Origin: Zeimonas arvi
GTDB lineage: Bacteria > Pseudomonadota > Gammaproteobacteria > Burkholderiales > Burkholderiaceae_E
DNA length: 64,000 nucleotides
Reading direction: 5' to 3'
NCBI RefSeq assembly: GCF_008039575.1
Contig: NZ_VDUY01000002.1
Location: forward strand, 62,001-126,000
Both the position numbers and the translations under genes were made by a program. Below the pieces are notes generated by a model, which saw only the letters and a program-made list of their open reading frames with translations, had not been told where the DNA came from and searched no databases. Every line of letters starts with the position of its first letter. The first letter of the stretch is position 1. This document shows positions 23,750-41,081 of this stretch, piece by piece.

Positions 23750-24063
23750 TGGAGGCTTCCGAAGTCGAGGATCGGCATCGTCCAGAAATGGATCGGGGCA
23801 GCGGGCATGGCTTGCCGGATCGCATCGAGCAGCGTGGACAGGGCGGCAGACGCGAGCGCAATCTCGATGCGGACCCGCTTCCCGCGGCCGCGGACGTTCT
23901 CGTCGGCCCCGACCAGCGGGACGCGCGTGCCGTGGCCGTCGGCAGGGCTGCTGGTGAAACCACCCGCGAGTTCCGGCATGGCCAGCAGGAGATCGACCAG
24001 CGGCTCCTCGAGCGCCGCCGGCGCGACGAGCGTGAGCACGATGTCGGTGCGGCCTTGCGTCAT
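23746..24063 (-). CDS. DUF3240-family small protein of a metal RND operon
   Basis: A 105-residue cytoplasmic protein with a PII-like ferredoxin fold expected from family membership. It begins MTQGRTDIVLTLVAPAALEE and ends HFWTMPILDFGSLQ. DUF3240 proteins are found almost only inside CzcA-type RND operons; a regulatory or metal-sensing role has been proposed, but I know of no firm assignment. The ATG overlaps the RND pump stop and its TGA overlaps the outer-membrane channel ATG, so all three are translationally coupled. Confidence 0.8.
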   Translation of the reverse strand: MTQGRTDIVLTLVAPAALEEPLVDLLLAMPELAGGFTSSPADGHGTRVPLVGADENVRGRGKRVRIEIALASAALSTLLDAIRQAMPAAPIHFWTMPILDFGSLQ

Positions 24064-27000
24064 CGCGGTGCTCCCTCGAGGGCGGCCGGGGTGCGATCGA
24101 GCCCGAACCGACGAAAGAGAATCGGCAGCAACAAGAGGGTCAACAGGGTCGAGCTGACAAGCCCGCCGATCACGACGACGGCAAGCGGCCGCTGGATCTC
24201 CGAGCCGGGCCCGCTGGCGAACAGCAGCGGCACCAGGCCGAAGGCCGCGATCGACGCAGTCATCATCACCGGGCGAAGCCTGCGTCGAGCGCCTTCGACG
24301 ACCGCCTCGGTGGCTGTCATCCCCTTGTCGATCAGCTGATTGAACTGCGTGACGAGCACGACGCCGTTGAGCACCGCGATGCCGAGCAGGGCGATGAAGC
24401 CGACCGAGGCCGGCACCGACAGGTACTCGCCCGACAGCAGCAGCGCGAAGATGCCTCCGACCAGCGCGAAGGGCACGTTCGCCAGGACCAGTGCCGCCTG
24501 CCGGACCGATCCGAAGGTCGAGAACAGCAGCAGGAAGATCAGGAGCAGGGCGACCGGCACGACGACCGCCAGCCGGGCCGCGGCGCGCTGCTGGTTCTCG
24601 AACTGCCCGCTCCACTCCAGGCGGTAGCCTGCGGGCAGCGGGACGTCCGTGGCCACCCGGGCCCGCGCTTCCTCGACGAAGCCGACCAGGTCGCGTCCGC
24701 GCACGTTCGCCTGGACCGTAGCGTAGCGCGCGCCGTTCTCGCGGTCGATCTTCACCGGACCGTCGATGCGCTCCAGGTGCGCCACCGCCGACAGCGGCAC
24801 GGCGCCGCCGCCGTCGAGGCCCAGCCTCAGGTCGGCGAAGCGTGCGGCGCTTGCGCGGAAGTCCTCGTCGGCGCGGATCAGGATCGGGACGCGACGGCCC
24901 CCCTCGACCAGCGAGCCCGCTTCCTGGCCCTGGACCACGGTGCGCAGCGACGACTCGATCTCGTCCACGGACAGGCCCAGGCGCCCGGCGGCGAGGCGGT
25001 CGATCCGTACGCGCAGGTACTGCATGCCCTCGTTCTTCGCGGTGAACACGTCCTCGGCCCCCGGGATCTCGCCGAGCAGCCTCTCGATCCGGGCGGCCGC
25101 GCCGGCGAGCTCGCGCAGGTCGTTGCCGAAGACCTTGACGGCCACGTCGCCGCGCACGCCGGTCAGCATCTCCGACACCCGCATCTCGATCGGCTGGGTG
25201 AAGGTCGCCTGCACGCCCGGGAAGGCGGCCGCCACCGCACGCAACTGGTCGGTGAGCCAGGCCTTGTCCGGACGGCGCCATTCGGCGATCGGCGCCAGCA
25301 CCAGGAAGCTGTCCGTCTGGTTCAGGCCCATGGGATCCAGGCCGAGCTCGTCGGAGCCCGAACGGGCCACGATGCTGCGGACTTCGGGGACCCGCTCGAG
25401 GATGGCCCGCTGGATCCGTGTGTCGATCTCGACCGTCTGCGCCAGGCCGATCGAGGGCAGCTTCTCCAGCTGCATGATGATGTCGCCCTCGTCCATGGTC
25501 GGCATGAAGCTCTTGCCGACCCGGACGTAGGCGCCGCCGGCCAGCAGCAGCAGGGCCAGCGCCGCCACGAAGACGGCGCGGGAATGGGCCATGGCCCAGG
25601 CCAGCGACGGACGATAGATCGCGTCGAGCTTGCGCACCAGCCAGGGCGCGTGGGCCGGTCCGCGCCTGAGCAGCAGCGAAGCGAGGACCGGGATCACGGT
25701 CAGGGCGAGCACCAGCGACACCGACAGCGCGTAGACGATCGACAGAGCGACCGGGATGAACAGCTTTCCCTCGAGCCCCTGCAGCGTGAGGAGCGGCAGG
25801 AACACGATCACGATGATGCACACGCCCGAAGTGACCGGGACCGCGACCTCGCGCACCGCGCGATAGACGAGGTGAAGGGCCGACACCGGCGCGAGCGCGC
25901 CGCCCTCGGCCAGCCGGGTCTCCAGGTTCTCGACGACCACGACCGAAGCGTCCACCAGCAGGCCGATCGCGATCGCCAGGCCGCCCAGGCTCATCAGGTT
26001 CGCGGACAGGCCGGTGTAGCGCATCAGCACGAATGTGCCGAGCGCCGCGAGGGGCAGGGTGAGCGCCACCACCAGGGCGGCCCGCAGGTTGCCCAGGAAA
26101 GCCACCAGCAACACGAGCACCAGGACGATCGCCTCGAGCAGCGCCCGCGACACGGTGCCGATCGCGCGCTCGACCAGCGTGGACCGGTCGTAGAAGGGCT
26201 CGATGCGCGTGCCGGCTGGCAGGTTTGTCGAGATCTCCGCCAGCCGCGCCTTCACGCCGTCGATCACCGCCTGGGCGTTGGCGCCGCGCAAGGCCAGCAC
26301 GAGGCCCTGCACCGCCTCGCCGGCGCCGTCGCGGGTCACCGCGCCGTTTCGCGTGAGGCTGCCGATGTGCACCTGGGCGACGTCGCCCACCCGGACCGGA
26401 ACACCGTCGCGCCGATCGATGACGATCTCGGCGAGGTCGTCCAGGCCGACGACCGCGCCCTCGACGCGGACGATGAGCGCCTCCTCGCCGTCGGCGAGCC
26501 GGCCGGCGCCATCGTTTCGGCTGTTGCGCTCCACCGCGCTTCGGAGCTGGTCGAGGCCGATGCCGCGCGCCGCGAGAAGCTGCGGATTGGGAACGATCTC
26601 GAAGGCCCGGGAGTGCCCGCCGAGGCTGTTGACGTCGGCCACGCCAGGGATCGTGCGCAGCTGCGGGCGGATCACCCATTCGAGCAGGGTTCGCTTCTCC
26701 TCGAGGGACAACGGGCCCTCGATCGTGAACATGAACATTTCGCTGAGCGGGGTGGTGATCGGGGCAAGGCCGCCGCTGGCCTGAGGGGGAAGCGCGTCCA
26801 TCGCGGCCGCCAGGCGCTCGGCCACCTGCTGCCGGGCCCAATAGATTTCGGTGCCGTCCTCGAAGTCCAGGGTGAGGTCCGTGAGGCCGTACTTCGAGAC
26901 CGCGCGCAGGATGCGCTGCCGCGGGATGCCGAGCAGCTCCTGCTCGATCGGCAGGGTGATCCGGCTCTCGACTTCCTCGGGCGTCATGCCGGGCGCTTTC

Positions 27001-27152
27001 ACGATGACCTTGACCTGGGTCGTCGAGACGTCGGGGAAGGCGTCGATCGGCAGCGCCCGGATCGAGACGACCCCCGCGCCCACCAGCAGGGCGGTCAGGA
27101 CCAGCATCAGCAGCCGCTGGGTCAGCGCGAATTCGATGATCCGGGACAGCAT
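24060..27152 (-). CDS. Heavy-metal-efflux RND pump (CzcA/CusA family)
   Basis: A 1030-residue inner-membrane RND transporter with two repeats of one helix, a large periplasmic porter domain and five helices. The TM4 motif reads AIAIGLLVDASVVVVEN (393-409). It keeps the Asp401/Glu408 pair but has Ala395 where CzcA-type pumps have an extra Asp, as CusA does. The CusA methionine triad in the porter domain seems not conserved (Gln/Gln/Glu by eye alignment). Metal specificity is therefore left open. ATG 27152 lies 5 bases beyond the fusion-protein stop. Confidence 0.9.
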   Translation of the reverse strand: MLSRIIEFALTQRLLMLVLTALLVGAGVVSIRALPIDAFPDVSTTQVKVIVKAPGMTPEEVESRITLPIEQELLGIPRQRILRAVSKYGLTDLTLDFEDGTEIYWARQQVAERLAAAMDALPPQASGGLAPITTPLSEMFMFTIEGPLSLEEKRTLLEWVIRPQLRTIPGVADVNSLGGHSRAFEIVPNPQLLAARGIGLDQLRSAVERNSRNDGAGRLADGEEALIVRVEGAVVGLDDLAEIVIDRRDGVPVRVGDVAQVHIGSLTRNGAVTRDGAGEAVQGLVLALRGANAQAVIDGVKARLAEISTNLPAGTRIEPFYDRSTLVERAIGTVSRALLEAIVLVLVLLVAFLGNLRAALVVALTLPLAALGTFVLMRYTGLSANLMSLGGLAIAIGLLVDASVVVVENLETRLAEGGALAPVSALHLVYRAVREVAVPVTSGVCIIVIVFLPLLTLQGLEGKLFIPVALSIVYALSVSLVLALTVIPVLASLLLRRGPAHAPWLVRKLDAIYRPSLAWAMAHSRAVFVAALALLLLAGGAYVRVGKSFMPTMDEGDIIMQLEKLPSIGLAQTVEIDTRIQRAILERVPEVRSIVARSGSDELGLDPMGLNQTDSFLVLAPIAEWRRPDKAWLTDQLRAVAAAFPGVQATFTQPIEMRVSEMLTGVRGDVAVKVFGNDLRELAGAAARIERLLGEIPGAEDVFTAKNEGMQYLRVRIDRLAAGRLGLSVDEIESSLRTVVQGQEAGSLVEGGRRVPILIRADEDFRASAARFADLRLGLDGGGAVPLSAVAHLERIDGPVKIDRENGARYATVQANVRGRDLVGFVEEARARVATDVPLPAGYRLEWSGQFENQQRAAARLAVVVPVALLLIFLLLFSTFGSVRQAALVLANVPFALVGGIFALLLSGEYLSVPASVGFIALLGIAVLNGVVLVTQFNQLIDKGMTATEAVVEGARRRLRPVMMTASIAAFGLVPLLFASGPGSEIQRPLAVVVIGGLVSSTLLTLLLLPILFRRFGLDRTPAALEGAPR

Positions 27153-27157
27153 CGCGA

Positions 27158-28318
27158 TCAGTCCCCCGAGCCAGGCCCGAGCGCGGCCTTCAGCTGGCTC
27201 GTGCCACGAGAGACGACCCGGTCGCCGGCGTCGAGGCCGCCCCTGACCACTCGCTCCTGATCCGAGCCGGAGATCAGTTCGACCGGAACCACCACGTACC
27301 GGCCGTTGCGCTCGGCGAATACCACGGGCCGCGAGTCGGTGCCGGCGAGCCTGACGAGCGCGCTGCCGGGGATGCGCCAGGCCGGCCGCGTACCTTCGCG
27401 CGGCGGGACGGCGATCTCCGCCTCGACTTGCTGGCCCGGATTGAGCGTGGCGAGGCGCGTGTCGAGCTGCGCGCGCACGACGATCGTCTGTCCGACGCCC
27501 ACGGCGCGCCCGACCGCGATCACCCTGCCTTCCGAGCCGCTCGCGGGGATCCGCACCGCCCGTCCCGCCGCCAGACCGCCGGCGAGCGCGACCGGCACGT
27601 CGATCTCGAGCGCCAGCGGCTCCAGTCGCGCCACCTGGAACAGCGTGGTCGCCGGGTCGACCCGCTCGCCGGCGCGCACCTGCTGCGACAGCAGCACGCC
27701 GTCGATCGGCGACTTCACCGTCAGTTCGGCGCTGCCTCCGGGGGCGGCGCCGGCCAGTTGCAGCAGGGCGCGGCGCTCGGCGAGCAGCGCCGCGGCCTGC
27801 CGGTCGGCGGCGCGGCTGGCCTCGACCCGGGATGCGGGAATCAGACCCTCGGAGAACAGGGCCTGGTCGCGAGCGAACGCTCGTGCCGCGCGATCGCGCT
27901 CGGCGCTCGCCTGGACGAGGTCGCGGCGCAAACCGATCAGCTCGGCGCTGGACAAGGTCGCCAGCGGCTGCCCGGCCTTCACGGAGTCGCCCGTGCCGAC
28001 GAGGATTGCGATGACCCGTGCGCTCACCGGAGCGGCGACGAATCGCAGCTGTGCGTCGGGCACCGTCACGCGGGCCGGCAGGTGACCGAGCCAGCCGGCA
28101 TCGGCGCTCAGGACCGGCGCGGTCTGGATGCCGGCTGCCGCGAATCGGGCCACCTCCAGCGATGCCGGCGTTGCCGACGATCGGGGAGATGCCGACGAGG
28201 TCGACGATGCGGGCGGTTCGGCCGCCCGGGCGAGCCCCGCGTGCGAGAGCGAGCCGGCTGTCGACGCGGCGAGCAGGAGGGCGAGAAGGCGGCAGGAGGG
28301 CATGAGGCGTGCGGGCAT
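27158..28318 (-). CDS. RND periplasmic adaptor (membrane fusion protein, CzcB/CusB-like)
   Basis: A 386-residue membrane fusion protein. The signal peptide is followed by a Ser/Ala/Pro-rich linker, then a lipoyl/barrel-sandwich half (ARVIAILVGTGDSVKAGQPL), a helical hairpin (about 130-195) and the second half (TVKSPIDGVLLSQQVRAGERV). It links the pump to the outer-membrane channel. It is the first gene of the four-gene efflux operon. No Met-rich or His-rich metal-binding extension is visible at either end. The divergent gap to the ferredoxin gene (159 bases) should hold its promoter. Confidence 0.88.
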   Translation of the reverse strand: MPARLMPSCRLLALLLAASTAGSLSHAGLARAAEPPASSTSSASPRSSATPASLEVARFAAAGIQTAPVLSADAGWLGHLPARVTVPDAQLRFVAAPVSARVIAILVGTGDSVKAGQPLATLSSAELIGLRRDLVQASAERDRAARAFARDQALFSEGLIPASRVEASRAADRQAAALLAERRALLQLAGAAPGGSAELTVKSPIDGVLLSQQVRAGERVDPATTLFQVARLEPLALEIDVPVALAGGLAAGRAVRIPASGSEGRVIAVGRAVGVGQTIVVRAQLDTRLATLNPGQQVEAEIAVPPREGTRPAWRIPGSALVRLAGTDSRPVVFAERNGRYVVVPVELISGSDQERVVRGGLDAGDRVVSRGTSQLKAALGPGSGD

Positions 28319-28780: not shown

Positions 28781-30166
28781 TCAGGCGAAAACGTGCGCCA
28801 GCACCAGCTGCTTGAAGGCGGTGGCCCCGACCTTCCCTGCAGGCAGCAGGTCGCCGCGCGAGCTGATCACCAGCGGACCGTGCGCCGGATCGCCGGTGAT
28901 CCGCCCATGCGAACCCTTCACGAGCTGCACGTCCTTCAGCGAGATCACGTCCATCAGCGTGCGCAGGCCGAACTTGCGCTTGGCGAGCCGCCAGGCCGTG
29001 GCCAGCATCGGCAGGCGCAGCTCGGGATCGACGAACAGCTCCACCGGGTCGTAGCCCGGCTTGCGATGGATGTCGACCGTGCGGGCGAAATCGGGGGCAA
29101 GCCGGTCGTCCAGCCAGTAGTAGTAGCTGAACCAGCGATCGGCCCTCGAGATCGCGACGAGCTCGCCCGAGCGCTCGTGATCCAGGCCGGCGGCGCGCTT
29201 GCCGGCCTCGTCGAGGACGGTCTCGACGCCATCGAGCCGCTCGACGATCGTGCGCACCTCGGCGATGCGCGAGGGGTCGTTCACGTAGACGTGCGCGACC
29301 TGGTGATCGGCGAGCGCGAAGGCGACGCTGGCGCCCGGGTCGAGGATCTCGCGGCCGAACTCCTCCGGGCGGACCTGGATCAGGCCCGCCTCGCGCAGCG
29401 CCCGGTTGATGGGAATCGCATCGGTGACCGGTGTGATGCCGTACTCGGACACCACGATCACATCGCGGCCGGTGGCGTCGGCGAAGTCGATCAGCTTGCC
29501 GCACTCGGCGTCGAGCTCGCGCAGGTCGGCCTGCACCCGAGAATGGGCCAGGTCGGGCCCGAGGCGCTGCAGGTTGTAGTCGAGGTGGGGCAGGTAGGTC
29601 AGGGTCAGGGTGGGATCGCGCGTCTGCATCACGTGCAGCGTGGCATCGGCGATCCAGGCCGTCGACGAGATGTCGGTCATCGGCCCCCAGAACTTGAACA
29701 GCGGGAACGGTCCGAGCTTCGCGTCGAGCTCGTCGTGCAGCGCGTAGGGGTGCGCGTAGTGATCGGGGATCTTGCGGCCGTCGGCGGGGTACATGGGACG
29801 CGGCGTCGCGCTCCAGTCGGCGCTGGCGTACATGTTGTACCACCAGAACATCTTCGCGCAGGTGAAGGACGGATCGCGGCGCCTGCCCGCTTCCCAGACC
29901 TTCTCGCCGGCGACCAGCCGGTTCGACTGCCGCCACAGCCAGATCTCGCTCAGGTCCCGGAAGTACCAGCCGTTGGCGACTATGCCGTGGCCCGAGGGCG
30001 GCAGCCCGGTGAGCAGCGTCGACTGGACCGTGCAGGTGACCGCCGGCGCCACCGTGTCCAGTGGCCTTTGCCCGCCGCGATCCGCGAGACGCCTCAGGTT
30101 CGGGGTGTGCTCGCCGACCAGGGCCGGAGACAGGCCGACGGCGAGGATGACCAGGCACGGTTTCAT
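28781..30166 (-). CDS. eboF: EboF-like nucleotide pyrophosphatase/phosphodiesterase (alkaline phosphatase superfamily)
   Basis: A 461-residue metal-dependent hydrolase of the nucleotide pyrophosphatase/phosphodiesterase branch. The nucleophile region is TVAPAVTCTVQSTLLTGLPP, with zinc-ligand segments YLPHLDYNLQRLG and VVSEYGITPV. No signal peptide is obvious; the N-terminus MKPCLVILAVGLSPALVGEHTPN is the first beta-strand. Members of this type accompany ebo genes (EboF) in cyanobacteria, eustigmatophyte algae and some proteobacteria. Here it is divergent from eboA across a 164-base gap. The substrate is unknown; the family usually cleaves phosphodiester or pyrophosphate bonds. Confidence 0.82.
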   Translation of the reverse strand: MKPCLVILAVGLSPALVGEHTPNLRRLADRGGQRPLDTVAPAVTCTVQSTLLTGLPPSGHGIVANGWYFRDLSEIWLWRQSNRLVAGEKVWEAGRRRDPSFTCAKMFWWYNMYASADWSATPRPMYPADGRKIPDHYAHPYALHDELDAKLGPFPLFKFWGPMTDISSTAWIADATLHVMQTRDPTLTLTYLPHLDYNLQRLGPDLAHSRVQADLRELDAECGKLIDFADATGRDVIVVSEYGITPVTDAIPINRALREAGLIQVRPEEFGREILDPGASVAFALADHQVAHVYVNDPSRIAEVRTIVERLDGVETVLDEAGKRAAGLDHERSGELVAISRADRWFSYYYWLDDRLAPDFARTVDIHRKPGYDPVELFVDPELRLPMLATAWRLAKRKFGLRTLMDVISLKDVQLVKGSHGRITGDPAHGPLVISSRGDLLPAGKVGATAFKQLVLAHVFA

Positions 30167-30330
30167 CGGATCGGGGCGCTCCGGGGCGAGCCCGGAGGCC
30201 GGGCGGGCAGATTGCGAACCGGGCGAGTGTAATACCATTTGCCTGGGCGTCGGACCGTTGGCAATATCCCCCGAAAACGGCCTCGGCAAACGTCCTCCAG
30301 GCGGCCGAAACCGATCCGAGAGGGGGAGAA

Positions 30331-31191
30331 ATGAGCGAGCCGGCCCGGAACATTCTTCGCGAATGCCTTCGCGCGCGCCTCGACCAGGAGCGGGATCGCT
30401 GGCTCGACGAGCAGCTTCGATCGATCGCCGCCGCCCCCACCGACAAGTTCCTGCACGTCGCGCTCGGCATGGCGCCGCGCCGGCTCGGCAAGGCCGCGCT
30501 CGCCGTGGATGCCGAGCCGCGCGCGCGGCTGGCCGCCGAGGTGCCTGGCTGGTCTCTGGAAGGCTGGAGCGTGTCCGACGCGGCGCGCGTGCTGATGCTC
30601 GCGGCGCTGCCGCCCGAGGGCTTCGCCGAGCGGTTCAGGGGGCTGTGCCAGACCGCCGACGTGGCCGAGTCGATCGCCCTCTATCGTGGCCTGCCCCTCT
30701 ACCCGGGCTCCGACGCGCTCGAGCACCAGGTGGGCGAAGGCCTGCGAGGCAACGTCCAGGCGGTGTTCGAGGCGATCGCCCACCGCAATCCCTATCCGAG
30801 GCAATGCTTCGACCAGCACCGCTGGAACCACATGGTCCTGAAGGCGCTCTTCATCGGCAGCAGGCTGGGCCCGATCGTGGGCCTCGACGAGCGCGCCAAC
30901 GAAGAGCTCGCCCGGATCATGATCGACTTCTCGCACGAGAGGAGGGCGGCCGCGCGGCCGGTCCCGTGGGAGATCTGGCGCTGCGTCGGGCCCTTCGCAA
31001 GGGGGGCGATGGTCGACGACCTGGCCCGGGCGCTGGACGACGGCGACTGCTTCCGCGAGGCTGCGGCGCTCGGGCTGTCGGCCAGCCCCGACCCGGCCGC
31101 GGCGGCCGTGCTCGACCGCGCGCCCGAGCTGCGCGAGGCCATCGCCCGCGGCGAACTCGACTGGAGCGCGCTGGCCGCCCGCTGCGGCTGA
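30331..31191 (+). CDS. eboA: EboA-domain protein
   Basis: A 286-residue soluble protein of unknown biochemical function that defines the ebo cluster. Recognition comes from the family-typical core HRNPYPRQCFDQHRWNHMVL followed by KALFIG and LDERANEELARIMIDFSHER. The N-terminal third is helical. A strong ribosome site (GAGAGGGGGAGAA) precedes ATG 30331. It is the first gene of the plus-strand arm, 44 bases before eboB. No catalytic residues are known for the family. Confidence 0.88.
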   Translation: MSEPARNILRECLRARLDQERDRWLDEQLRSIAAAPTDKFLHVALGMAPRRLGKAALAVDAEPRARLAAEVPGWSLEGWSVSDAARVLMLAALPPEGFAERFRGLCQTADVAESIALYRGLPLYPGSDALEHQVGEGLRGNVQAVFEAIAHRNPYPRQCFDQHRWNHMVLKALFIGSRLGPIVGLDERANEELARIMIDFSHERRAAARPVPWEIWRCVGPFARGAMVDDLARALDDGDCFREAAALGLSASPDPAAAAVLDRAPELREAIARGELDWSALAARCG

Positions 31192-31235
31192 GACGCGCAG
31201 AACCGCATCATGCACAGAGACCCTGGAGACGACAG

Positions 31236-32162
31236 ATGATGTTCATCGACCCCCATGCGCACATGGTGTCGCGCACGACCGACGACTACGAGGCGATGGC
31301 CGCGGCCGGCGTCGTGGCGGTCATCGAGCCGGCCTTCTGGCTCGGCCAGCCGCGTACCAACGTCGGCGCCTACCTCGACTACCTGTCCACGCTGGTCGGC
31401 TTCGAGCGCTTCCGCGCCGGCCAGTTCGGCATCCGCCACTACTGCACGATCGGCCTGAACTCGAAGGAGGCGAACAACGAGGCGCTGGCCGAGGGCGTCA
31501 TGGAGCTGATCCCGCGCTTCGCGCTGAAGGAAGGGGTGGTCGCGATCGGGGAGATCGGCTACGACGAGCAGACCGCGCTCGAGGACAAGTACTTCCGGCT
31601 GCAGCTCGACCTGGCGAAGGAGCTCGACCTGCCGGTCATGATCCACACCCCGCATCGCGACAAGAAGCGCGGCACCTCGCGCTCGATGGACGTCTGCATC
31701 GAGCACGGCCTGGCGCCTTCGAAGGTGGTGATCGACCACAACAACGAGGAGACGGTCCGCGAGTGCCTGGACCGCGGCTTCTGGGCCGCCTTCTCGATCT
31801 ATCCGAGCACCAAGATGGGCAATGAGCGGATGGTCGAGATCCTTCGCCAGTACGGCGCCCGCCAGATCATCGTGGACTCGGCCTGCGACTGGGGCATCTC
31901 CGAGCCGCTCGGCGTGGCCAAGACCGCCCGGCTCGCGCTGCAGCGCGGCATCCCCGAGGAGCAGGTCAGGCTGGCCTGCTACCAGAACGCGCTCGACGCC
32001 TACGGGCAAAGCGGGCAGATGAAGGAAGCGGACTGGCTGAACCCGGTCGACATCGATCAGCGCGCGCTTTACGAGGGCAACTCGATCCTGCGCGGCGGGC
32101 GCGAACCGCGTGTCGAGAAGCTCGCCAACCGTCGGTCGATGGACGACCTGATCATCAAGTGA
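31236..32162 (+). CDS. eboB: EboB, TatD-like metal-dependent hydrolase
   Basis: A 308-residue amidohydrolase-superfamily protein. Metal-binding candidates are the HxH in DPHAHM (His7, His9), the Glu of VAIGEIGYDEQ, the two His of MIHTPHRDKK and the late Asp of IVDSACDWG, a complete TatD-type set. TatD proteins are hydrolases or 3'-exonucleases, but EboB forms its own branch associated with ebo genes. Two adjacent ATGs (31236 and 31239) are possible starts. It is the second gene after eboA. Confidence 0.87.
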   Translation: MMFIDPHAHMVSRTTDDYEAMAAAGVVAVIEPAFWLGQPRTNVGAYLDYLSTLVGFERFRAGQFGIRHYCTIGLNSKEANNEALAEGVMELIPRFALKEGVVAIGEIGYDEQTALEDKYFRLQLDLAKELDLPVMIHTPHRDKKRGTSRSMDVCIEHGLAPSKVVIDHNNEETVRECLDRGFWAAFSIYPSTKMGNERMVEILRQYGARQIIVDSACDWGISEPLGVAKTARLALQRGIPEEQVRLACYQNALDAYGQSGQMKEADWLNPVDIDQRALYEGNSILRGGREPRVEKLANRRSMDDLIIK

Positions 32163-32203
32163 AGGCGCCGGCTGGCCCGGCTTCGCGCCCCCTCCGATTT
32201 GCG

Positions 32204-32233
32204 TTGTTCGACTGAAGTCGGCTGATCTATACT
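32204..32233 (+). promoter_or_regulatory. Sigma-70 promoter candidate before the PQQ-type dehydrogenase gene
   Basis: A -35-like TTGTTC (32204-32209) and -10-like TATACT (32228-32233) are separated by 18 bases, in the 208-base gap after eboB. This would give the sugar dehydrogenase and cytochrome genes transcription separate from eboAB. The call is by eye. Confidence 0.5.
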
Positions 32234-32370
32234 CGATTCACGGGTCGCGCCGGAGAGAAGCGTTTTCGGCGCGTGTCCTGCCGGTGCGGAAGAACCCGTC
32301 GCTGGGCTCATCGTTGCGCCGGACCACGAGCGCCGGATCCATTCCGGCGAAACAATGATCAGGAGGAGCA

Positions 32371-33672
32371 ATGAGTCCCATCAAACTGGGGGCCGCGCTG
32401 GTCGCCGCGCTTGGCATCGCCTTCGGCAGCGGTGCCGCGGTGGCGGGCCCGAAGATCAAGCTGGAGCCCTTCGTCACCAAAGTCAACACGCCGCTGGCGA
32501 TGGTCCAGCCGCCGGGTGACAACCGGATGTTCGTCATCGAGCAGTTCGGCCGGGTGCGAGTGATCGAGAACGGCAAGATGCTGCCCACGCCCTTCCTCGA
32601 CATCCGAAGCAAGATCGTCAAGCAGCACCACGATTTCGACGAGCGCGGGCTTCTCGGCATCGCCTTCCACCCGAAGTTCAGGGAGAACGGCAAGTTCTAC
32701 GTCGCGTTCAGCACGCACCTGGACTTCCAGCAGGATCTCGGCCAGATGCTCTGGTACGACCACAGCAACGTGGTCGAGGAATACACGGTCTCCAGGAGCG
32801 ACCCGAACATGGCCGATCCGAGCACGGCCCGCCGGATCAGCTCGATCGCCTGGCCGCAGTTCAACCACAACGGCCACTGGATCGGCTTCGGCCCCGACGG
32901 CATGCTTTACATCTCCACCGGCGACGGCGGCTACGCGAACGACTGGGGCATCGGCCACAACGTGACCGACGGCAACGGCCAGGACCTGACCACGCTGCTG
33001 GGCAAGATGCTTCGCATCGACGTCGACAAGCGCACCGGCGACAAGCCCTACGGCATTCCCGACGACAATCCGTTCGCCAAGGATCGCAACGCCATGCCCG
33101 AGATCTGGGCCTATGGCCTGCGCAACCCGTGGCGCTGCTCCTTCGACACCGGCAGCGGCGCCCTGTTCTGCGGCGACGTGCAGCAGAACAGCTACGAGGA
33201 AGTCAGCATCGTGGGCAAGGGGCAGAACATGGGCTGGCGCCGGATGGAAGCCACCCACTGCTTCGACTACACGAAGCCCGACAACCATCCGGCCAGTTGC
33301 GACAAGAACGGCCTGACCCTGCCGATCCTGGAATACAAGAACTGCACGGCCAAGCCCGACGGATGCATGGGGATCTCGGTCACCGGCGGCTATGTCTACC
33401 AGGGCGCGAACGCGGCCTGGAAGGGCAAGTACATCTTCGGCGACTGGAGCAAGTCCTTTGCAGAGATGGACGGTCAGATCTTCGTGGGCACCAAGGGCGC
33501 CGACGGCAAGTGGACGATGGAACTCGCCGAGGTCGTCGGGATGTCGGGCAAGCTGCCCTACATCCTGGCCTTCGCGCAGGACGCGAACGGCGAGGTCTAT
33601 GCGCTGACCTCCGTGACCACCGGCCCGAACGGCTCGCTGGACACGATCTACAAGATCGTTCCGGCGCAGTGA
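32371..33672 (+). CDS. PQQ-dependent sugar dehydrogenase (glucose/sorbosone dehydrogenase family), exported
   Basis: A 433-residue periplasmic beta-propeller enzyme. The signal peptide is roughly residues 1-25 (MSPIKLGAALVAALGIAFGS), cut near AVA-GP. Family features include ERGLLGIAFHPKF, the FNHNGHWIGFGPDGMLYISTGD segment (here interrupted for length at GFGPDG), WAYGLRNPWRCSFD and GGYVYQG near the C-terminus. It has six cysteines in the second half, possibly disulfides. Soluble PQQ-type dehydrogenases oxidise sugars or alcohols and pass electrons to a cytochrome; one is encoded next. Its position between eboB and eboD is unusual. Confidence 0.85.
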   Translation: MSPIKLGAALVAALGIAFGSGAAVAGPKIKLEPFVTKVNTPLAMVQPPGDNRMFVIEQFGRVRVIENGKMLPTPFLDIRSKIVKQHHDFDERGLLGIAFHPKFRENGKFYVAFSTHLDFQQDLGQMLWYDHSNVVEEYTVSRSDPNMADPSTARRISSIAWPQFNHNGHWIGFGPDGMLYISTGDGGYANDWGIGHNVTDGNGQDLTTLLGKMLRIDVDKRTGDKPYGIPDDNPFAKDRNAMPEIWAYGLRNPWRCSFDTGSGALFCGDVQQNSYEEVSIVGKGQNMGWRRMEATHCFDYTKPDNHPASCDKNGLTLPILEYKNCTAKPDGCMGISVTGGYVYQGANAAWKGKYIFGDWSKSFAEMDGQIFVGTKGADGKWTMELAEVVGMSGKLPYILAFAQDANGEVYALTSVTTGPNGSLDTIYKIVPAQ

Positions 33673-33687
33673 TCGCGGCCTGATCGC

Positions 33688-33725
33688 CCTGGGGCATCGT
33701 CGGCCACGGCCCGCGATGCCCCAGG
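33688..33725 (+). terminator. Hairpin downstream of the PQQ-type dehydrogenase gene
   Basis: A perfect 12-base-pair stem, CCTGGGGCATCG paired with CGATGCCCCAGG, with a 14-base loop, followed by TTGCTTCG. It lies between the dehydrogenase stop and the cytochrome start. The weak T-tract suggests partial termination or mRNA protection rather than a full stop. Confidence 0.45.
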
Positions 33726-33812
33726 TTGCTTCGAGCCAGCGATTCTTTCCAGGTCCGGCGGCGGCAGCGCCGGACCGTTCCCGATCCGACGAGTTGTGCA
33801 GGTGAAAGGCTG

Positions 33813-34172
33813 ATGAGAAAAAGTCTCGCGTTCGCGGCGGTGTCGCTGCTCCTTGTGTCTGTCGGCGCGCATGCCCAAGGCAAGCCCGCCGAGGAAGAGA
33901 AACCGCCGGTCTTCGAGAAAGCCTTCCTGGAAGACCCCGCCAACATCGAGATGGGCAAGCAGGTCTGGCAACAGCAATGCCGCCACTGCCACGGTGCCAG
34001 CGCCTACCCGGGCAAGGCGCCCAAGCTGGTGCCGGGACGGATGGACGCCGATTTCATCTACGACCGGGTCACCTACGGCTTCCGGAAGATGCCCGGATGG
34101 AAGGAAGTGTTCTCGCAGCAGCAGCGGATGGCGGTCGCGGCCTACATCAAGAGCCACGAGTTCTCGCCCTGA
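33813..34172 (+). CDS. Exported monohaem cytochrome c
   Basis: A 119-residue class I cytochrome c. The signal peptide is MRKSLAFAAVSLLLVSVGAHA; the haem motif is CRHCH (Cys56, Cys59, His60) and the probable axial Met93 is in FRKMPGW. It should be soluble in the periplasm. Directly following the PQQ-type dehydrogenase, it is the obvious electron acceptor linking that enzyme to the respiratory chain. ATG 33813 was chosen because it places the signal peptide at the N-terminus; the frame is open further upstream. Confidence 0.88.
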   Translation: MRKSLAFAAVSLLLVSVGAHAQGKPAEEEKPPVFEKAFLEDPANIEMGKQVWQQQCRHCHGASAYPGKAPKLVPGRMDADFIYDRVTYGFRKMPGWKEVFSQQQRMAVAAYIKSHEFSP

Positions 34173-34192
34173 GCGCGCGCCGCGCCAAGGCG

Positions 34193-34212
34193 GCGGGCAC
34201 CGGTGTGCCCGC
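34193..34212. terminator. Short GC hairpin between convergent cytochrome and TMEM220-like genes
   Basis: An 8-base-pair stem (GCGGGCAC / GTGCCCGC) with a four-base loop, in the 47-base gap between two convergent stops. There is no U-tract, so it is a weak terminator candidate. Confidence 0.3.
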
Positions 34213-34219
34213 GCGGCGT

Positions 34220-34585
34220 TCAGACCCGGCCGACGGCAGCGCCGCCTCGCAGCGAGCTGACCCAGGCGACCAGCAGCACGATCAGGAGAAGCATCACGCC
34301 CATCCCTTCACGCGCGGTTTCCTCGTTCCACCAGACTTCCTTGTGCCAGAAGCCCGGCATCTGCGGCCAGTAGTACGCGACTGCGGCAACGCCGGCGAGC
34401 ACGCTGAGCTGCAGCAGGCGGCTGCCGAGCGGCGTGCGCAGCAGGGGCAGGCGGAAGGCGGCGAGAAAGGCCCAGATCATCGGCACCGAGTAGATCGCCA
34501 TCCACAGCGGCCCGTCCGGGTCGTTGTACTGGACCGCGACGAAGGCGAGCATCAGGATTCCCAACAGGACGTTCAGGTAGCGCAT
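34220..34585 (-). CDS. TMEM220-family small membrane protein
   Basis: A 121-residue protein with four predicted membrane helices. The family's QYNDPDGPLWMAIYSVPMIW segment follows the first helix, and a Trp-rich loop (FWHKEVWWNEETAREGMG) precedes the last helix. TMEM220 proteins are conserved from bacteria to animals without known function. It is the only minus-strand gene inside the ebo cluster apart from eboF, divergent from eboD across a 128-base gap. Its location may indicate a link to the Ebo pathway or simple insertion. Confidence 0.78.
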   Translation of the reverse strand: MRYLNVLLGILMLAFVAVQYNDPDGPLWMAIYSVPMIWAFLAAFRLPLLRTPLGSRLLQLSVLAGVAAVAYYWPQMPGFWHKEVWWNEETAREGMGVMLLLIVLLVAWVSSLRGGAAVGRV

Positions 34586-34713
34586 GGCGGCGAAAGTCTC
34601 CGGTTGTACGGGCCGGTCGCGCCGGCCGTGAGCGCATTCTCCATCCTCGTCTGTTCGTACACAATGACGATCGAAAGCGGCCGCCGCGCGGCCGGAAACA
34701 CAGGGCGGCAGCG

Positions 34714-35910
34714 ATGAGCATCCCAGTCACGAAGTCCGCGGTCGAGAGGCAGACGGTCTGGCAGCGGTTTTCCGTGCCCTTCGAGTTCCCGGTGGTGTTC
34801 ACCGAGGACCTGTTCGCGCCCGGGAACGTCGCGCTGCGCGACGCGATCGCCCGGCTCGAGCCACACAAGCGCCACCGCCTGATCGTCTTCATCGACGACG
34901 GCCTCGCTGCCGCGCGGCCCGAACTGGCGGACCAGGTGCAGGCCTACGTGGCAGGGCACGCCGACGCCCTGGAGCTCGTCTGCAAGCCGGTGCTGGTGCC
35001 CGGCGGCGAGAAGATCAAGGCCGACCTGCACTTCATCGAGGCGATCCAGCAATCGTTGTTCGACTTCCACATCGACCGCCACTCCTGCGTCGTGGCGATC
35101 GGGGGCGGGGCCGTGCTCGATGCCGTCGGGCTGGTGTCCGCCACCACGCACCGCGGCATCCGGCACGTCCGCGTTCCCACCACGGTCCTGGCCCAGAACG
35201 ACTCGGGGGTGGGCGTCAAGAACGGCGTCAACCTGCATGGCGTGAAGAACTTCGTGGGGACTTTCGCGCCGCCGTTCGCGGTGCTCAACGATCTCGACTT
35301 CGCGATGAGCCTGCCCGATCGGGACAAGATCGCGGGCATGGCCGAGGCGGTCAAGGTCGCGCTGATTCGCGACGCCGGTTTCTTCGCGTGGCTCGAGCAG
35401 CACTCCGAGCACCTCGCCACCTTCGAGCGCGAGGCAATGGCCACCATGATCCGCCGATGCGCGGAGCTGCACATGCGCCAGATCGCGCACGGCGGCGATC
35501 CCTTCGAGACGGGCAGCGCGCGGCCGCTCGACTACGGCCACTGGTCGGCGCACAAGCTCGAAAGCATCACGCGCCACCACGTCAGGCATGGCGAGGCGGT
35601 CGCGATCGGCATGGCGCTCGATGCACGCTATTCGGTGCTGAGCGGCCTGCTCGAGGCGGGGCAGGAAGATCGCATCTGCGCCTTGCTCGAGTTCCTCGGC
35701 TTCGACCTCTGGCACCCGGGCCTGCTGCGCACCGAGCCCGATGGCGAGCTGGCGATCCTGGCGGGCCTGCGCGAGTTCCGCGAGCACCTGGGCGGCGAGC
35801 TCACGATCACGCTGCTCGCAGGCATCGGCACTGGCGTGGAACTCCACGAGATCGACGTGGACCGCATGAAGGAATCGATCGCCTGGCTCGAGCGGCGCCT
35901 GGAGGCCTGA
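34714..35910 (+). CDS. eboD: EboD, 3-dehydroquinate-synthase-like sugar-phosphate cyclase
   Basis: A 398-residue member of the sugar-phosphate cyclase superfamily. The NAD-binding GGGAVLD is at about 130-136. Candidate metal ligands are Glu211 (GMAEAVKV), His276 (DYGHWSAHKLE) and His292 (RHGEAVAIGM), with the 16-residue His-His spacing of dehydroquinate synthases. The DYGHWSAHKLE segment differs from the NLGHTFGHAIE of true AroB, which marks the EboD branch. The substrate is unknown; a heptulose or related sugar phosphate is plausible. Its stop overlaps the eboE start (TGATG). Confidence 0.9.
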   Translation: MSIPVTKSAVERQTVWQRFSVPFEFPVVFTEDLFAPGNVALRDAIARLEPHKRHRLIVFIDDGLAAARPELADQVQAYVAGHADALELVCKPVLVPGGEKIKADLHFIEAIQQSLFDFHIDRHSCVVAIGGGAVLDAVGLVSATTHRGIRHVRVPTTVLAQNDSGVGVKNGVNLHGVKNFVGTFAPPFAVLNDLDFAMSLPDRDKIAGMAEAVKVALIRDAGFFAWLEQHSEHLATFEREAMATMIRRCAELHMRQIAHGGDPFETGSARPLDYGHWSAHKLESITRHHVRHGEAVAIGMALDARYSVLSGLLEAGQEDRICALLEFLGFDLWHPGLLRTEPDGELAILAGLREFREHLGGELTITLLAGIGTGVELHEIDVDRMKESIAWLERRLEA

Positions 35911-37103
35911 TGCGGATTCGCGGCACGGTCACCGACTGCCACCTGAGCTACTGCACGAACATCCACGCGGGCGAAACACTCGACGAGGTGATGGCGGGGT
36001 TGCGGGAGCACCTGCCGGCGGTGCGAGCCCAGGTCTGCCCCGGCGAACCGATGGGCGTCGGCCTTCGACTGGGTGCGACGGCGCTCGCGGCGCTCCAGGA
36101 TCCCGCGCGCTTCGAGGCGCTGAAGGGTTTCCTCGACGACGGCGGCTTCTACGTGTTCACGGTCAACGGCTTTCCGTACGGGACCTTCCACGGCGCCACC
36201 GTGAAGGAAGGCGCCTACCGACCCGACTGGAGCGATCCGCTCCGACTGGCGTACACGAATGCGCTGGCCGAGCTCTTCGCCCGGCTGCTGCCGGATGGCC
36301 TGGAGGGCAGCCTGAGCACGGTGCCGGGCACCTTCAGGCCCTGGGCCGCGGGGCGGCTCGACACGATCACCGCGAACCTGATCGCGCATGTCGCGCGGCT
36401 GGTGGAGATCGAGCGCGCCACCGGCAAGACGATCTGCCTGGCCCTGGAGCCCGAGCCCTGCTGCCTCCTCGAGACCGTCGACGAAACCATCGCGTACTTC
36501 GAGGGGCATCTGTTCGGCGAGGCCGCACGGGCGCAACTGGCGGCCGCCACCGGCTTGTCGGGAACGGCGCTGGAGGCCGCGATGCGCCGGCACCTGGGGG
36601 TCTGCTACGACGTCTGCCACGCGGCGGTCGAGTTCGAGGATCCGGCGGCCAGCATCGCCGCCTTGCGCGCGCGCGGCATCCGGATCGCCAAGGCCCAGCT
36701 CAGTTCGGCGCTCCGGGTGCCGGCTCTCGACGAAGCGAGCGCGGCCCGGCTCGAGGCCTTCGCCGAGCCGGTCTACCTGCACCAGGTGGTCGAGCGGCGC
36801 GACGGCCAGCTGCGGCGCTTCCTGGACCTGCCCGAGGCGCTCGCGGCGCGCGACACCGCCCGGGGCGCCGAATGGCGCGTGCACTTTCACGTGCCGGTCT
36901 TCCTGCCGGAAATGATCGGATTCGGCACCACGCAGTCCTTCCTGGCGGAGGTGCTCGCACTGCATGCGTCCGACCCGGTGTCCGGACATCTCGAGGTCGA
37001 GACCTATACCTGGGACGTGCTGCCCGAGGCCTATCGCAAGGTTCCGCTGGGCGCGGCGATTGCCCGCGAGCTCGACTGGGTCCTGCAGAGAATCGGGGGC
37101 TGA
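35910..37103 (+). CDS. eboE: EboE, xylose-isomerase-like TIM-barrel protein
   Basis: A 397-residue TIM-barrel protein annotated in other genomes as metabolite traffic protein EboE. Recognisable segments are DCHLSYCTNIHAGETLDE at the N-terminus, FTVNGFPYGTFHG near 85, LALEPEPCCLLETVDET, GVCYDVCHAAVEFEDP and HFHVPVF. The Glu/Asp/His residues in these loops could form a metal site as in sugar isomerases. It is translationally coupled to eboD (shared A in TGATG) and followed 4 bases later by eboC. Confidence 0.9.
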   Translation: MRIRGTVTDCHLSYCTNIHAGETLDEVMAGLREHLPAVRAQVCPGEPMGVGLRLGATALAALQDPARFEALKGFLDDGGFYVFTVNGFPYGTFHGATVKEGAYRPDWSDPLRLAYTNALAELFARLLPDGLEGSLSTVPGTFRPWAAGRLDTITANLIAHVARLVEIERATGKTICLALEPEPCCLLETVDETIAYFEGHLFGEAARAQLAAATGLSGTALEAAMRRHLGVCYDVCHAAVEFEDPAASIAALRARGIRIAKAQLSSALRVPALDEASAARLEAFAEPVYLHQVVERRDGQLRRFLDLPEALAARDTARGAEWRVHFHVPVFLPEMIGFGTTQSFLAEVLALHASDPVSGHLEVETYTWDVLPEAYRKVPLGAAIARELDWVLQRIGG

Positions 37104-37107
37104 GCCC

Positions 37108-37980
37108 ATGAAACCGAAGACCGTGCTGAAGCTCGGGCGGGTGTCCAACCTTCCCACCGTATGGACGAACACGCTGGCCGGCGCGGTGCTGGCCGGCGCC
37201 ACCGCCTTCGGCGCACAGATGGCGGTGATGCTGGTCGCATTCTCGCTGTTCTACGTGGGCGGGATGTTCCTGAACGACGCCTTCGACGCCGAGTACGACG
37301 CCCGCGAGCGCCCCGAGCGGCCGATCCCGTCGGGAGAGGTGTCGCGGAGCAGCGTCTTCCTCGCCGGTTACGCGCAGATGGCGCTCGGCCTCCTGCTGCT
37401 GGCCTGGGCGGGCTACGGGTTCGGGACCGGCGCCGGCATCGCGCCGGTGCTGGCCGGCGTCGGGCTGGCGGCGGCGATCACCTTGTACGATGCCTGGCAC
37501 AAGGGCAATCCGCTCAGCCCGCTGCTGATGGGCCTGTGCCGGGTCCTCGTCTATCTCGGGGCAGGGCTCTGCGTGACCCTGGTCCTGCCCGGCGCGCTCT
37601 GGCTGGGCGCGGGGTTGCTGCTCTGCTACCTGATCGGGCTCACCTACGTGGCCAAGCAGGAGAACCTCGGCGAGGTCCGCAACCTGTGGCCCTTGCTCTT
37701 CCTGGCGGCGCCGGTGCTGCACGGCGCCTGGCTGGCCGCGCAGTCGGCGGTGGTGGCGCCTTTCCTGCTGCTGTTCGTCGTCTGGATGCTCGTCGCGCTC
37801 TGGTTCCTGCGTCGCCGACAGCGCGGCGACATCCCGCGCGCCGTGGTCAGCCTGATCGCCGGCATCTCGCTGCTCGACGCGATGCTGATCGCGGGCGCCG
37901 GCGCGCCGGCCCTGGCGCTGCTGGCGCTGGCAGGCTTTGCCGTGACGCTTTTCCTGCAGCGCTACATCTCGGGAACCTGA
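37108..37980 (+). CDS. eboC: EboC, UbiA-family prenyltransferase
   Basis: A 290-residue integral membrane prenyltransferase with eight to nine helices. The first Asp-rich motif NDAFDAEYD (56-64) followed by RPERPIPSG binds prenyl diphosphate. The second region YDAWHKGNPLSPLLMGLCR lacks a full second DxxxD, as in other EboC proteins. It would attach a prenyl group to an acceptor in the cytoplasmic membrane; the acceptor is unknown. ATG 37108 lies 4 bases after the eboE stop. It is the last gene of eboDEC, followed by a compound hairpin. Confidence 0.9.
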   Translation: MKPKTVLKLGRVSNLPTVWTNTLAGAVLAGATAFGAQMAVMLVAFSLFYVGGMFLNDAFDAEYDARERPERPIPSGEVSRSSVFLAGYAQMALGLLLLAWAGYGFGTGAGIAPVLAGVGLAAAITLYDAWHKGNPLSPLLMGLCRVLVYLGAGLCVTLVLPGALWLGAGLLLCYLIGLTYVAKQENLGEVRNLWPLLFLAAPVLHGAWLAAQSAVVAPFLLLFVVWMLVALWFLRRRQRGDIPRAVVSLIAGISLLDAMLIAGAGAPALALLALAGFAVTLFLQRYISGT

Positions 37981-38055: not shown

Positions 38056-38367
38056 TCAGGCCGCCGGGGAAAGGACGTGGATCGCGCGACTGGCGACCAG
38101 ATCCCTGGTCTGCGCCGCGTAGGCGGCCATGTGCGGGGCGCGGGCATGCGCCTTCAACGCATCCAGGTCGCGCCACTTCTCGATGACCACGAAGGTGTCC
38201 GGGCCGAAAGGCGCCTGGAAGCCCAGCACCGGGTCGACGTCGACGGCCGCGCCGTACTCGATGCAGCCGTCCTCGGCGAGCACGTTGGCGCGATTGGCGC
38301 GGAAGGCTTCGAGCACGGCCTTCCGCTGTCCGGGTTTGGCGGTGATGACGGCGATGACGTTGATCAT
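38056..38367 (-). CDS. Antibiotic-biosynthesis-monooxygenase (ABM) domain protein
   Basis: A 103-residue ferredoxin-like alpha/beta barrel protein of the ABM/YgiN type. Typical features are the start MINVIAVITAKPGQRKAVLE, the GCIEYG segment and FVVIEKWRDLDALKAHARAP with a conserved Trp and His. Members are cofactor-independent monooxygenases, for example on quinols, or are quinone-interacting proteins. It follows the Baeyer-Villiger monooxygenase gene on the same strand after 40 bases and may be co-transcribed with it. Confidence 0.85.
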   Translation of the reverse strand: MINVIAVITAKPGQRKAVLEAFRANRANVLAEDGCIEYGAAVDVDPVLGFQAPFGPDTFVVIEKWRDLDALKAHARAPHMAAYAAQTRDLVASRAIHVLSPAA

Positions 38368-38407
38368 GTTCGGGGAGAAGGGAGAGGGGGAAGAGGAAGG
38401 AGTTCGG

Positions 38408-40135
<1,728 letters not shown>

Positions 40136-40272
40136 CACGTCTCCGGGTGTCGTTCTCGGAACGATGATAGACGCGTGTCGAGCGCGCCGCGAACCCGCCG
40201 CGCCGGGAATCGGCACGTGATGCCCACCGCGGCAAGCGGGACCCGCCGGGCCCGCGCGGGACCGGCGCGCAA

Positions 40273-40836
40273 TCAGCGCCGGCAGCGCACCAGCCAGGAG
40301 CCCTGGACGATCAGATAGTCCGAAGGCGGCCCGCCGGCGGGCGCTTGCCGCTCGAAACTGCGGCTGAGCCCGCGCTCGCGCCAGTCGGGAATGAAGCGGT
40401 AGGCCTGCCCGCCGGGGCCGAGCGGCGGCTCCGCGCGGGCGGCCACCTTGTTGACCGGCAGCCTGTCGTTGTCGCCGCGGTCCGCGACCGCCAGTACCAG
40501 CGCGCGATCGCCGGGCGCATCGAAGCCCGGAGGCAGGATCGCGAGGCTGTCCCACCAGCCGTCGGTCATCACCGCGCACTGGACCCGGAGCACGCGCCCG
40601 GCCGCGATCTCGGCCGGGCCGATCCCGGCCGCCTGAAGCGCGGGGCGCGCCGCCGCGACATCGCGACGGGTCTCGAGGTCCTGGGCGGTGACCGGGCGTC
40701 CGACGGAGACCGTCACCGTCTCGCCGGGGCCGGGCATCGAGGCGCAACCGGCCAGGCCCAGGATCAGGACACAGGCGGCGAGTGGTGCGGCGGTCAGGGC
40801 CGAGGGTCGAAACAGGGAGGCGAGCGGACCGGGCAT
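40273..40836 (-). CDS. Lipoprotein of unknown function, 187 aa
   Basis: The protein has a clear lipobox, LILGLAGC, after a hydrophobic stretch; the mature part begins CASMPGPGETVTVSVG. A central ADRGDNDRLPVNKV and the two Cys (VQCAV, VRCRR) may pair as a disulfide. No family is recognised. ATG 40836 (MPGPLASLF) gives a normal signal length; the open frame to 41010 adds a non-conserved lead. It is alone on its strand and divergent from the histidine kinase gene across 245 bases in which I see no further gene. Confidence 0.7.
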   Translation of the reverse strand: MPGPLASLFRPSALTAAPLAACVLILGLAGCASMPGPGETVTVSVGRPVTAQDLETRRDVAAARPALQAAGIGPAEIAAGRVLRVQCAVMTDGWWDSLAILPPGFDAPGDRALVLAVADRGDNDRLPVNKVAARAEPPLGPGGQAYRFIPDWRERGLSRSFERQAPAGGPPSDYLIVQGSWLVRCRR

Positions 40837-41081
40837 CGATGGGCTCCATAGCAGCGAGCCGGCAGCGTAACCGGGCGCCCCGCAATCCGCAAAGCGGTGC
40901 CGCGGCTTGCCGATGCGATTGCCGGATTCGATGATCACTTCCCGGCACCTGGCCTGTTGCGGGGGTACCCGCATTGGTCTGTGCCCGCAGGGTGCCGAAC
41001 CGTGCGGCAAATCCTGGTGTATCGTCGTGGTTCGACCTGCTCGTTGTCGCCGGTAGTCGCCTCATCGGGGGCAAGCGCAAC

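Follow-up and report, generated by a model that had tools for sequence, protein, structure and literature searches.

An ebo gene cluster with an embedded dehydrogenase-cytochrome c module in a Lautropia-like Burkholderiales bacterium

We analysed a stretch of 64,000 nucleotides of Zeimonas arvi DNA (the window; contig bases 62001-126000 of a 3.83 Mb genome that is 98.9% complete), in which nine genes of an ebo cluster, assigned from open reading frame (ORF) positions and Pfam and NCBIfam models, occupy positions 28781-37980. The ebo operon of eustigmatophyte plastids, Cyanobacteria and Bacteroidetes is reported as the clustered genes eboA-F, with EboD as a separate sugar-phosphate-cyclase lineage and EboC as a member of the UbiA superfamily (PMC5133447). 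A sequence-only reading of the window had claimed a complete ebo set with an embedded periplasmic dehydrogenase module. All nine genes lie where it had placed them and family models match, and a GSDH-type dehydrogenase, a cytochrome c and a TMEM220-family protein are indeed found between eboB and eboD. The genes are, in order:

28781..30166, minus strand: eboF, 461 amino acids, alkaline-phosphatase-superfamily protein with an apparently remodelled metal site (V9, T43, D195, Q199, E240, Y241, H366); PF01663, 204 bits
30331..31191, plus strand: eboA, 286 amino acids, predicted all-helical; EboA domain 159 bits, cut-off 50
31236..32162, plus strand: eboB, 308 amino acids, TatD-like metallo-hydrolase; PF01026 62 bits, cut-off 27
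32371..33672, plus strand: GSDH-type dehydrogenase, 433 amino acids, six-bladed propeller by family; PF07995 125 bits, cut-off 25
33813..34172, plus strand: monohaem cytochrome c, 119 amino acids, CRHCH haem motif; PF13442 56 bits, cut-off 27
34220..34585, minus strand: TMEM220-family membrane protein, 121 amino acids; PF15071 48 bits, cut-off 27
34714..35910, plus strand: eboD, 398 amino acids, sugar-phosphate-cyclase superfamily; PF01761/PF24621
35910..37103, plus strand: eboE, 397 amino acids, xylose-isomerase-like triosephosphate isomerase (TIM) barrel; NF035939 equivalog 449.6 bits, cut-off 250
37108..37980, plus strand: eboC, 290 amino acids, UbiA-superfamily prenyltransferase, NDxxDxxxD; PF01040 UbiA 47.8 bits, cut-off 34.2

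Homologues of eboA to eboF are thus physically clustered, with the EboE and EboA domain models well above their cut-offs. The start of eboE shares the last base of eboD (position 35910). For eboF we chose the ATG of MKPCLVIL at 30166, the most likely start, over the TTG start of a longer ORF. The stricter EboA_family model gave 195.5 bits for EboA, under its cut-off of 320, and the EboC equivalog model NF035940 gave 127.5 bits, under its cut-off of 250; eboC is placed on the Pfam UbiA match, its position in the cluster and the conserved NDxxDxxxD motif. By eye, the dehydrogenase has a hydrophobic N-terminus like that of a Sec signal peptide, and the N-terminus of the cytochrome c also resembles a signal peptide. 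The closest EboE among named genomes is that of Lautropia sp. SCN 70-15 (95% identity). We regard the locus as a full ebo cluster from a Lautropia-like member of the Burkholderiales, and as a proteobacterial variant that brings along a module for oxidation outside the cytoplasm.

The distribution of EboE is rare and patchy: it is present in 4 out of the family's 74 genomes and in 3 of 398 genomes drawn from the phylum, the window's own being included in both samples. One genome of the same genus has the identical gene order on one contig, and a second has both halves on two contigs. A pattern scan of 84,980 genomes gave 497 EboE relatives, of which the best 80 were kept and mapped; 9 loci with a solo EboE were left out and 71 counted, 30 of them fully covered (at least 3 kb on both sides) and 41 not, with each gene counted once, by its best model. 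The ebo genes cluster together in relatives, so that the co-occurrence in relatives on which the sequence-only reading had staked its case was borne out.

Within 3 kb of the ebo genes, 40 of the 71 loci contain a propeller dehydrogenase, 39 a cytochrome c, 37 both and 24 a TMEM220 protein; in the fully covered loci the corresponding numbers are 18, 16, 16 and 9. GSDH genes occur at a base rate of 120 matches per 148 Mb in 29 of these genomes, which gives 0.32 expected in the 30 covered neighbourhoods as compared to 14 observed; some GSDH genes were counted twice, which raises the expected number. Because the loci are related, a Poisson value overstates the significance of this excess, and gene order is the better argument. 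The type-1 GSDH, to which the window's protein belongs, adjoins ebo in 26 loci (window included) with 18 different gene strings; hand pooling of strings that differ in nothing but contig ends or a single small gene leaves about 11 gene orders. The dehydrogenase-cytochrome module recurs as a partner of ebo, and chance neighbourhood was rejected on the base rate, the neighbourhood counts and the gene strings.

The type-1 group of the GSDH tree (built without L137, L139, L133, L097, short rows and those rows of the 80 loci that scored less than 300 bits) comprises 29 rows, 27 linked to ebo and 2 unlinked, with a support of 90/98 that is under the starred level. One of the unlinked rows (L135) comes from the same genome as L045 and sits close to the end of a contig; as the L045 cluster is itself truncated by a contig end, a contig break may explain why L135 appears unlinked. 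At the family level, a type-1 GSDH (above 700 bits) was found in 4/4 genomes with EboE and in 1/70 of the others, three of the four belonging to one genus. GSDH distances track those of EboE, EboD and EboF (r 0.80-0.84; 0 of 2000 permutations reached this in each case), a correlation that shows shared descent and not function. Other lineages have other partners: a second GSDH type with a MoxG-like cytochrome adjoins ebo in 6 loci, a propeller weakly similar to ScyE (28 bits, cut-off 80) together with another cytochrome is found in Bradyrhizobium, and a ScyE of 170 bits (same cut-off) in Dankookia.

The PF07995 match assigns the window's dehydrogenase to the GSDH family, and H166, R251 and N252, which we take to be the catalytic His, Arg and Asn, are kept in 27/27 linked type-1 proteins. 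Two positions that are Gln in 7/7 Asd-type proteins are Glu and Trp in the ebo GSDH; the C-terminal arginines that bind pyrroloquinoline quinone (PQQ) fall outside this comparison, canonical proteins being truncated in that alignment. In a sequence search of the PDB the nearest solved relatives were hedgehog-interacting proteins (150 bits), with bacterial and archaeal GSDHs at 65 bits or less, and TIGR03606 gave 62.8 bits with respect to a cut-off of 434.55.

Apart from EboD, the host has an AroB on another contig (C6). Opposite its R126, N135 and K214, EboD carries F252, D261 and F343 in 63/63 EboD sequences (rows above 550 bits), the last position being in a gapped part of the alignment, and the NAD/metal and phosphate-handling residues are kept; the functional roles of all these AroB residues are those we assume for a 3-dehydroquinate synthase (DHQS). 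EboD therefore lacks the DHQS substrate-site residues of the host's own enzyme. The separate AroB and the substitutions rule out EboD as the shikimate AroB; the sequence-only reading had named a grouping of EboD with AroB in a phylogeny as a result that would refute it. PRK06203, which bears the DHQS name, matches EboD with 569 bits (cut-off 333), and on these residues the name looks like a carried-over annotation, as was argued before (PMC5133447).

We then compared 15 plasmid ebo loci, chosen by hand to be varied, out of 48 records matching EboE and 54 matching EboF, and spanning Proteobacteria, Deinococcus, Actinomycetota and Gemmatimonadota. Seven contain EboD and eight a myo-inositol-1-phosphate synthase (MIPS); none contains both and none lacks both. 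Both MIPS Pfam domains were confirmed in 7/7 tested of the eight proteins, and the MIPS profile had no match in any of the 80 genome loci. Since the non-homologous MIPS takes the place of EboD in other phyla, the EboD step probably makes a cyclitol, and this replacement by another cyclitol synthase is the strongest new evidence on that step. The substrate proposed for EboD in 2016 is sedoheptulose 7-phosphate (PMC5133447).

The structural model of EboE has a predicted local distance difference test (pLDDT) score of 93.5. Its best Foldseek match is IolI, and IolE is among the 49 matches at E <= 0.001; template modelling (TM) scores (query) with IolI, xylose isomerases and IolE are all 0.50 or less, and a sequence search of the PDB found no EboE relative at E <= 10. 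The modelled structure would fit cyclitol or sugar work, without fixing the reaction. In Ketogulonicigenium (L110, 6771-8817), two Gfo/Idh/MocA oxidoreductases directly precede eboD and an extra TIM barrel follows eboB, as expected for sugar or cyclitol work.

EboC keeps NDxxDxxxD in 63/63 sequences, and the EboC proteins of Maribacter, Algoriphagus and Zobellia are reported to farnesylate 8-hydroxyquinoline-2-carboxylic acid in vitro (PMC9235831). An isopentenyl diphosphate (IPP) isomerase lies within 3 kb of ebo in 15/71 loci (6 of the 30 fully covered), the median distance to an ebo gene being 31 bases over 14 loci, and a VTT-domain protein of the DedA superfamily in 6/71 (3 of the 30). One of each was checked against curated libraries, the others resting on profiles built here: the IPP isomerase was above its curated cut-off, and the best NCBI match of the VTT protein was the undecaprenyl-phosphate (C55-P) transporter UptA, at 31 bits with a cut-off of 250. 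DedA proteins are reported as C55-P flippases (PMC12893004, PMC11474028). The presence of both genes beside ebo in relatives suggests that the ebo product is prenylated and crosses a membrane.

EboF is a member of PF01663 and is commonly annotated as a phosphodiesterase. In a PDB alignment with the nucleotide pyrophosphatase/phosphodiesterase (NPP) of Xanthomonas, T90, D210, H214, D257 and H258 stand opposite EboF T43, D195, Q199, E240 and Y241; NPP D54 was matched to V9 by ungapped offset and NPP H363, presumably, to H366, both EboF positions being outside the printed alignments. We take these seven NPP residues (numbered 39 above the chain numbering) to be the two-metal site with T90 as the nucleophile. 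The EboF residues V, T, D, Q, E, Y and H are invariant in 73/73 sequences of at least four phyla, counted without cyanobacterial, Bacteroidetes and eukaryotic EboF; these sequences, 72 of them distinct, comprise the rows scoring above 700 in the 80 loci plus the window (56) and 17 loci taken without limit. EboF therefore departs from the canonical seven-residue site at 4 of 7 positions, replaced identically throughout, at an identity across phyla of 50.8-73.9% among the 40 plasmid rows listed. The host's own canonical PF01663 protein has D, H and DH where EboF has D, Q and EY, and, by eye, DG at the place of V9. Since four of the seven ligands differ and the residues in their stead do not vary, the pattern reads as remodelling of the metal site and not as decay; EboF is probably not a canonical phosphodiesterase, and its usual name is probably wrong about the chemistry.

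EboB has HxH, E, H and H in 53/53 sequences and Asp in 44/53 (Asn in 9), which we take to be the expected metal ligands, and the window's EboB carries them all, with Asp at the last; TIGR00010 (TatD subfamily) gave 40.3 bits, with a cut-off of 206. Judged by these motifs, the catalytic residues of EboB and EboC are largely intact and those of EboF are not. The EboA model (pLDDT 97.2) is all-helical. Foldseek matched it to no PDB structure at E <= 0.001; the 50 listed rows were mostly helical-repeat or designed proteins with TM-scores (EboA length) of 0.42 or less, and the best E value in a sequence search of PDB chains was 0.79. Given these unmatched searches, neither the published idea of a tetratricopeptide repeat nor another fold is supported for EboA.

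The surroundings of the cluster and some related loci deserve mention. Immediately upstream, on the minus strand at 22493-28318, there is a resistance-nodulation-division (RND) efflux system made up of an outer membrane efflux protein, an AcrB-type pump and an HlyD/CusB adaptor; a Roseivivax ebo cluster is likewise preceded by an RND pump. Immediately downstream, the minus strand at 38056-41089 encodes a protein with an ABM domain and a flavin monooxygenase of Baeyer-Villiger type, which scores 270 bits to PtlE with a cut-off of 1100, and a tRNA gene at 44491-44564 is the sole Rfam match in the window at gathering thresholds. In Granulosicoccus (L053, L058, L063, L065, L068, L069, L077, L091) an EboE paralogue occurs without adjoining ebo genes, beside what look by eye like glycosyltransferases and transport proteins; three of these assemblies have a second contig with a complete or partial ebo cluster (L063/L079, L069/L085, L091/L076). 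Family-less proteins are present inside other ebo clusters (L112 8823-9866, L114 8854-9180, L120 7809-8147), and a Pfam search of those of L112 and L114 gave no match. Those of Deinococcus, sited where EboA is missing, may be EboG.

We propose, with a little less than even confidence, that the ebo enzymes form a prenyl-cyclitol in the cytoplasm and that, once across the inner membrane, it is oxidised by the propeller, which feeds cytochrome c. EboD would cyclise a sugar phosphate to a cyclitol, which the IolI/xylose-isomerase-like EboE and the TatD-like EboB would rework, and EboC would join it to a prenyl chain at the membrane, with prenyl units supplied by IPP isomerase where this is linked. 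The lipid, or a cargo on it, would then cross the inner membrane, with a DedA/VTT protein as flippase where present, and in the periplasm the GSDH propeller would oxidise the product or cargo, with the cytochrome c next to it as electron acceptor. EboF and EboA would be non-canonical, perhaps scaffolding or carrier-handling, parts. The proposal draws on an analogy with scytonemin synthesis, where the Nostoc ebo mutants made (eboD not among them) keep the scytonemin monomer inside the cytoplasm and its oxidation is ascribed to the periplasmic ScyE (PMC6282210): the module appears to share a compartment with ScyE, being a propeller with a signal peptide and an electron acceptor. The system described here would be the proteobacterial counterpart of ebo with ScyE.

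Several points weigh against this proposal. Gene content and correlations are what was observed, and from them we infer substrate, product, transport and oxidation alike; moreover, the 80 loci, being those with the closest EboE relatives, are no random sample and not independent of one another, and they also served to train the profiles. A MIPS product would keep its phosphate and an EboD product would not. The profiles found neither IPP isomerase nor DedA in the window, and the acceptors of EboC relatives so far are aromatic quinolines, not cyclitols (PMC9235831). As to the cofactor, no PqqE above the curated cut-off was found in the host genome, and among 11 genomes with the type-1 module, whose completeness is not given, PqqE exceeded the cut-off in 4 and in 7 none did. 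PQQ is therefore a possible but unproven cofactor of the ebo GSDH, judged from these genomes; the host may take it up. Of the "PQQ-type" dehydrogenase of the sequence-only reading, the family stands and the cofactor is so far unsupported. Module and cluster also occur apart. A gsdh-cytc-TMEM220 set occurs in a complete Burkholderiales genome without EboE (L147 8182-10450, with no ebo genes in the surrounding 19.9 kb), and a type-1 GSDH in a 77%-complete genome of the family, also without EboE. The other two EboE genomes of the phylum sample (G203, G259) have no type-1 GSDH, and 12/30 fully covered ebo loci have none of the propellers searched for. For these reasons we see the module as a unit of its own, which can exist apart from ebo but is found preferentially with it.

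This separability raises the idea that the trio is an independent periplasmic sugar-oxidation module, which travels with ebo and does not act on its product. The stand-alone set of L147 fits it, as do a gsdh-cytc pair on another contig in one Rhodobacteraceae ebo genome and the host's second-type GSDH, which is away from ebo. A mere passenger is nevertheless hard to square with a type-1 GSDH kept beside ebo through the hand-pooled gene orders, with the other propeller/cytochrome pairs, ScyE and multicopper oxidase that adjoin ebo in other lineages, and with the co-occurrence in the family, even if mostly from one genus; we consider it unlikely. Somewhat less improbable, though still rather doubtful, is that ebo is a trafficking device, whose lipid binds or carries a pre-made aromatic compound without itself being the product, as proposed for the scytonemin monomer, with the module oxidising the cargo. 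The ebo deletions made in Nostoc, of which eboD was not one, all build up this monomer in the cytoplasm, and that study found no lipid conjugate (PMC6282210). In the window, Pfam and NCBIfam show no aromatic biosynthetic gene inside the cluster, although the flavin monooxygenase adjoins it. This alternative overlaps with the prenyl-cyclitol proposal, because the published one itself needs a lipid carrier. EboC might instead prenylate an aromatic acceptor to give a secreted meroterpenoid, the cyclitol being an aromatic precursor or absent. The farnesylation of 8-hydroxyquinoline-2-carboxylic acid by three EboC proteins speaks for this; the 14 acceptors tried were, however, all aromatic, with no cyclitol named (PMC9235831), and a MIPS in the place of EboD is difficult to reconcile with a shikimate-type aromatic. 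We regard it as quite improbable.

The ebo system as such is known from papers of 2016, 2018 and 2022. The "undescribed system" announced by the sequence-only reading thus goes too far, given that ebo clusters, some with inserted genes, have been on record from 2016 and were assigned an export role in 2018; it is right that the product is not known, a question that dates back to 2016 and concerns hosts as different as algal plastids and soil bacteria. The main text of PMC5133447 makes no mention of cytochrome, sorbosone, isopentenyl, DedA, SNARE, inositol, zinc or active site. In the literature searched, MIPS in ebo clusters was not found, nor were GSDH, IPP isomerase or DedA with ebo, and DedA and GSDH were never paired with ebo in searching; nor did that literature show the module variant and its recurrent redox partner, the exchange of EboD for MIPS, the links to IPP isomerase and DedA or the EboF site. 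The product becomes directly testable through four genomic clues: the presumed cyclitol synthase is replaced in some loci, IPP isomerase and a DedA/VTT protein are each linked to ebo in some relatives, and a periplasmic propeller stands beside its likely electron acceptor. The EboD result backs the 2016 view that the name 3-dehydroquinate synthase is wrong, and the EboF result is a warning on the phosphodiesterase name. A far broader conjecture, which we hold to be rather unlikely, is that ebo builds a prenyl-cyclitol lipid across phyla and that this lipid brings itself or a cargo to the external side of the membrane, where a partner beta-propeller oxidises what arrives. The propeller would be GSDH, together with cytochrome c, in Proteobacteria and of the ScyE type in Cyanobacteria and Streptomyces; EboD and MIPS would be unrelated but interchangeable, and EboF would represent a novel sort of alkaline-phosphatase-superfamily protein, in which the two-metal centre was rebuilt and then frozen.

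With respect to known systems, the locus shares six homologous clustered genes with the eustigmatophyte, cyanobacterial and Bacteroidetes operon, and differs in its order, which is F'AB-module-DEC and not ABCDEF (FABDEC and others are recorded there), and in the embedded GSDH, cytochrome c and TMEM220 genes (PMC5133447). The ebo genes of the Nostoc punctiforme scytonemin operon, the only case with genetic evidence for ebo moving a metabolite to the periplasm, likewise have a signal-peptide partner protein, the periplasmic ScyE, where the window has GSDH and cytochrome c; no search was aimed at scytonemin genes in the window (PMC6282210). The EDB cluster of Pseudomonas fluorescens NZI7 is reported to contain a full ebo cluster and further ORFs with signal peptides (PMC6282210). 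Lastly, the ebo-type clusters of five annotated Streptomyces plasmids have EboA, EboB, EboE, EboF and an EboC-like SCO3242 prenyltransferase. All five carry MIPS where the window has EboD, along with an additional TIM barrel, and 3/5 carry a ScyD/ScyE-family protein together with a multicopper oxidase.

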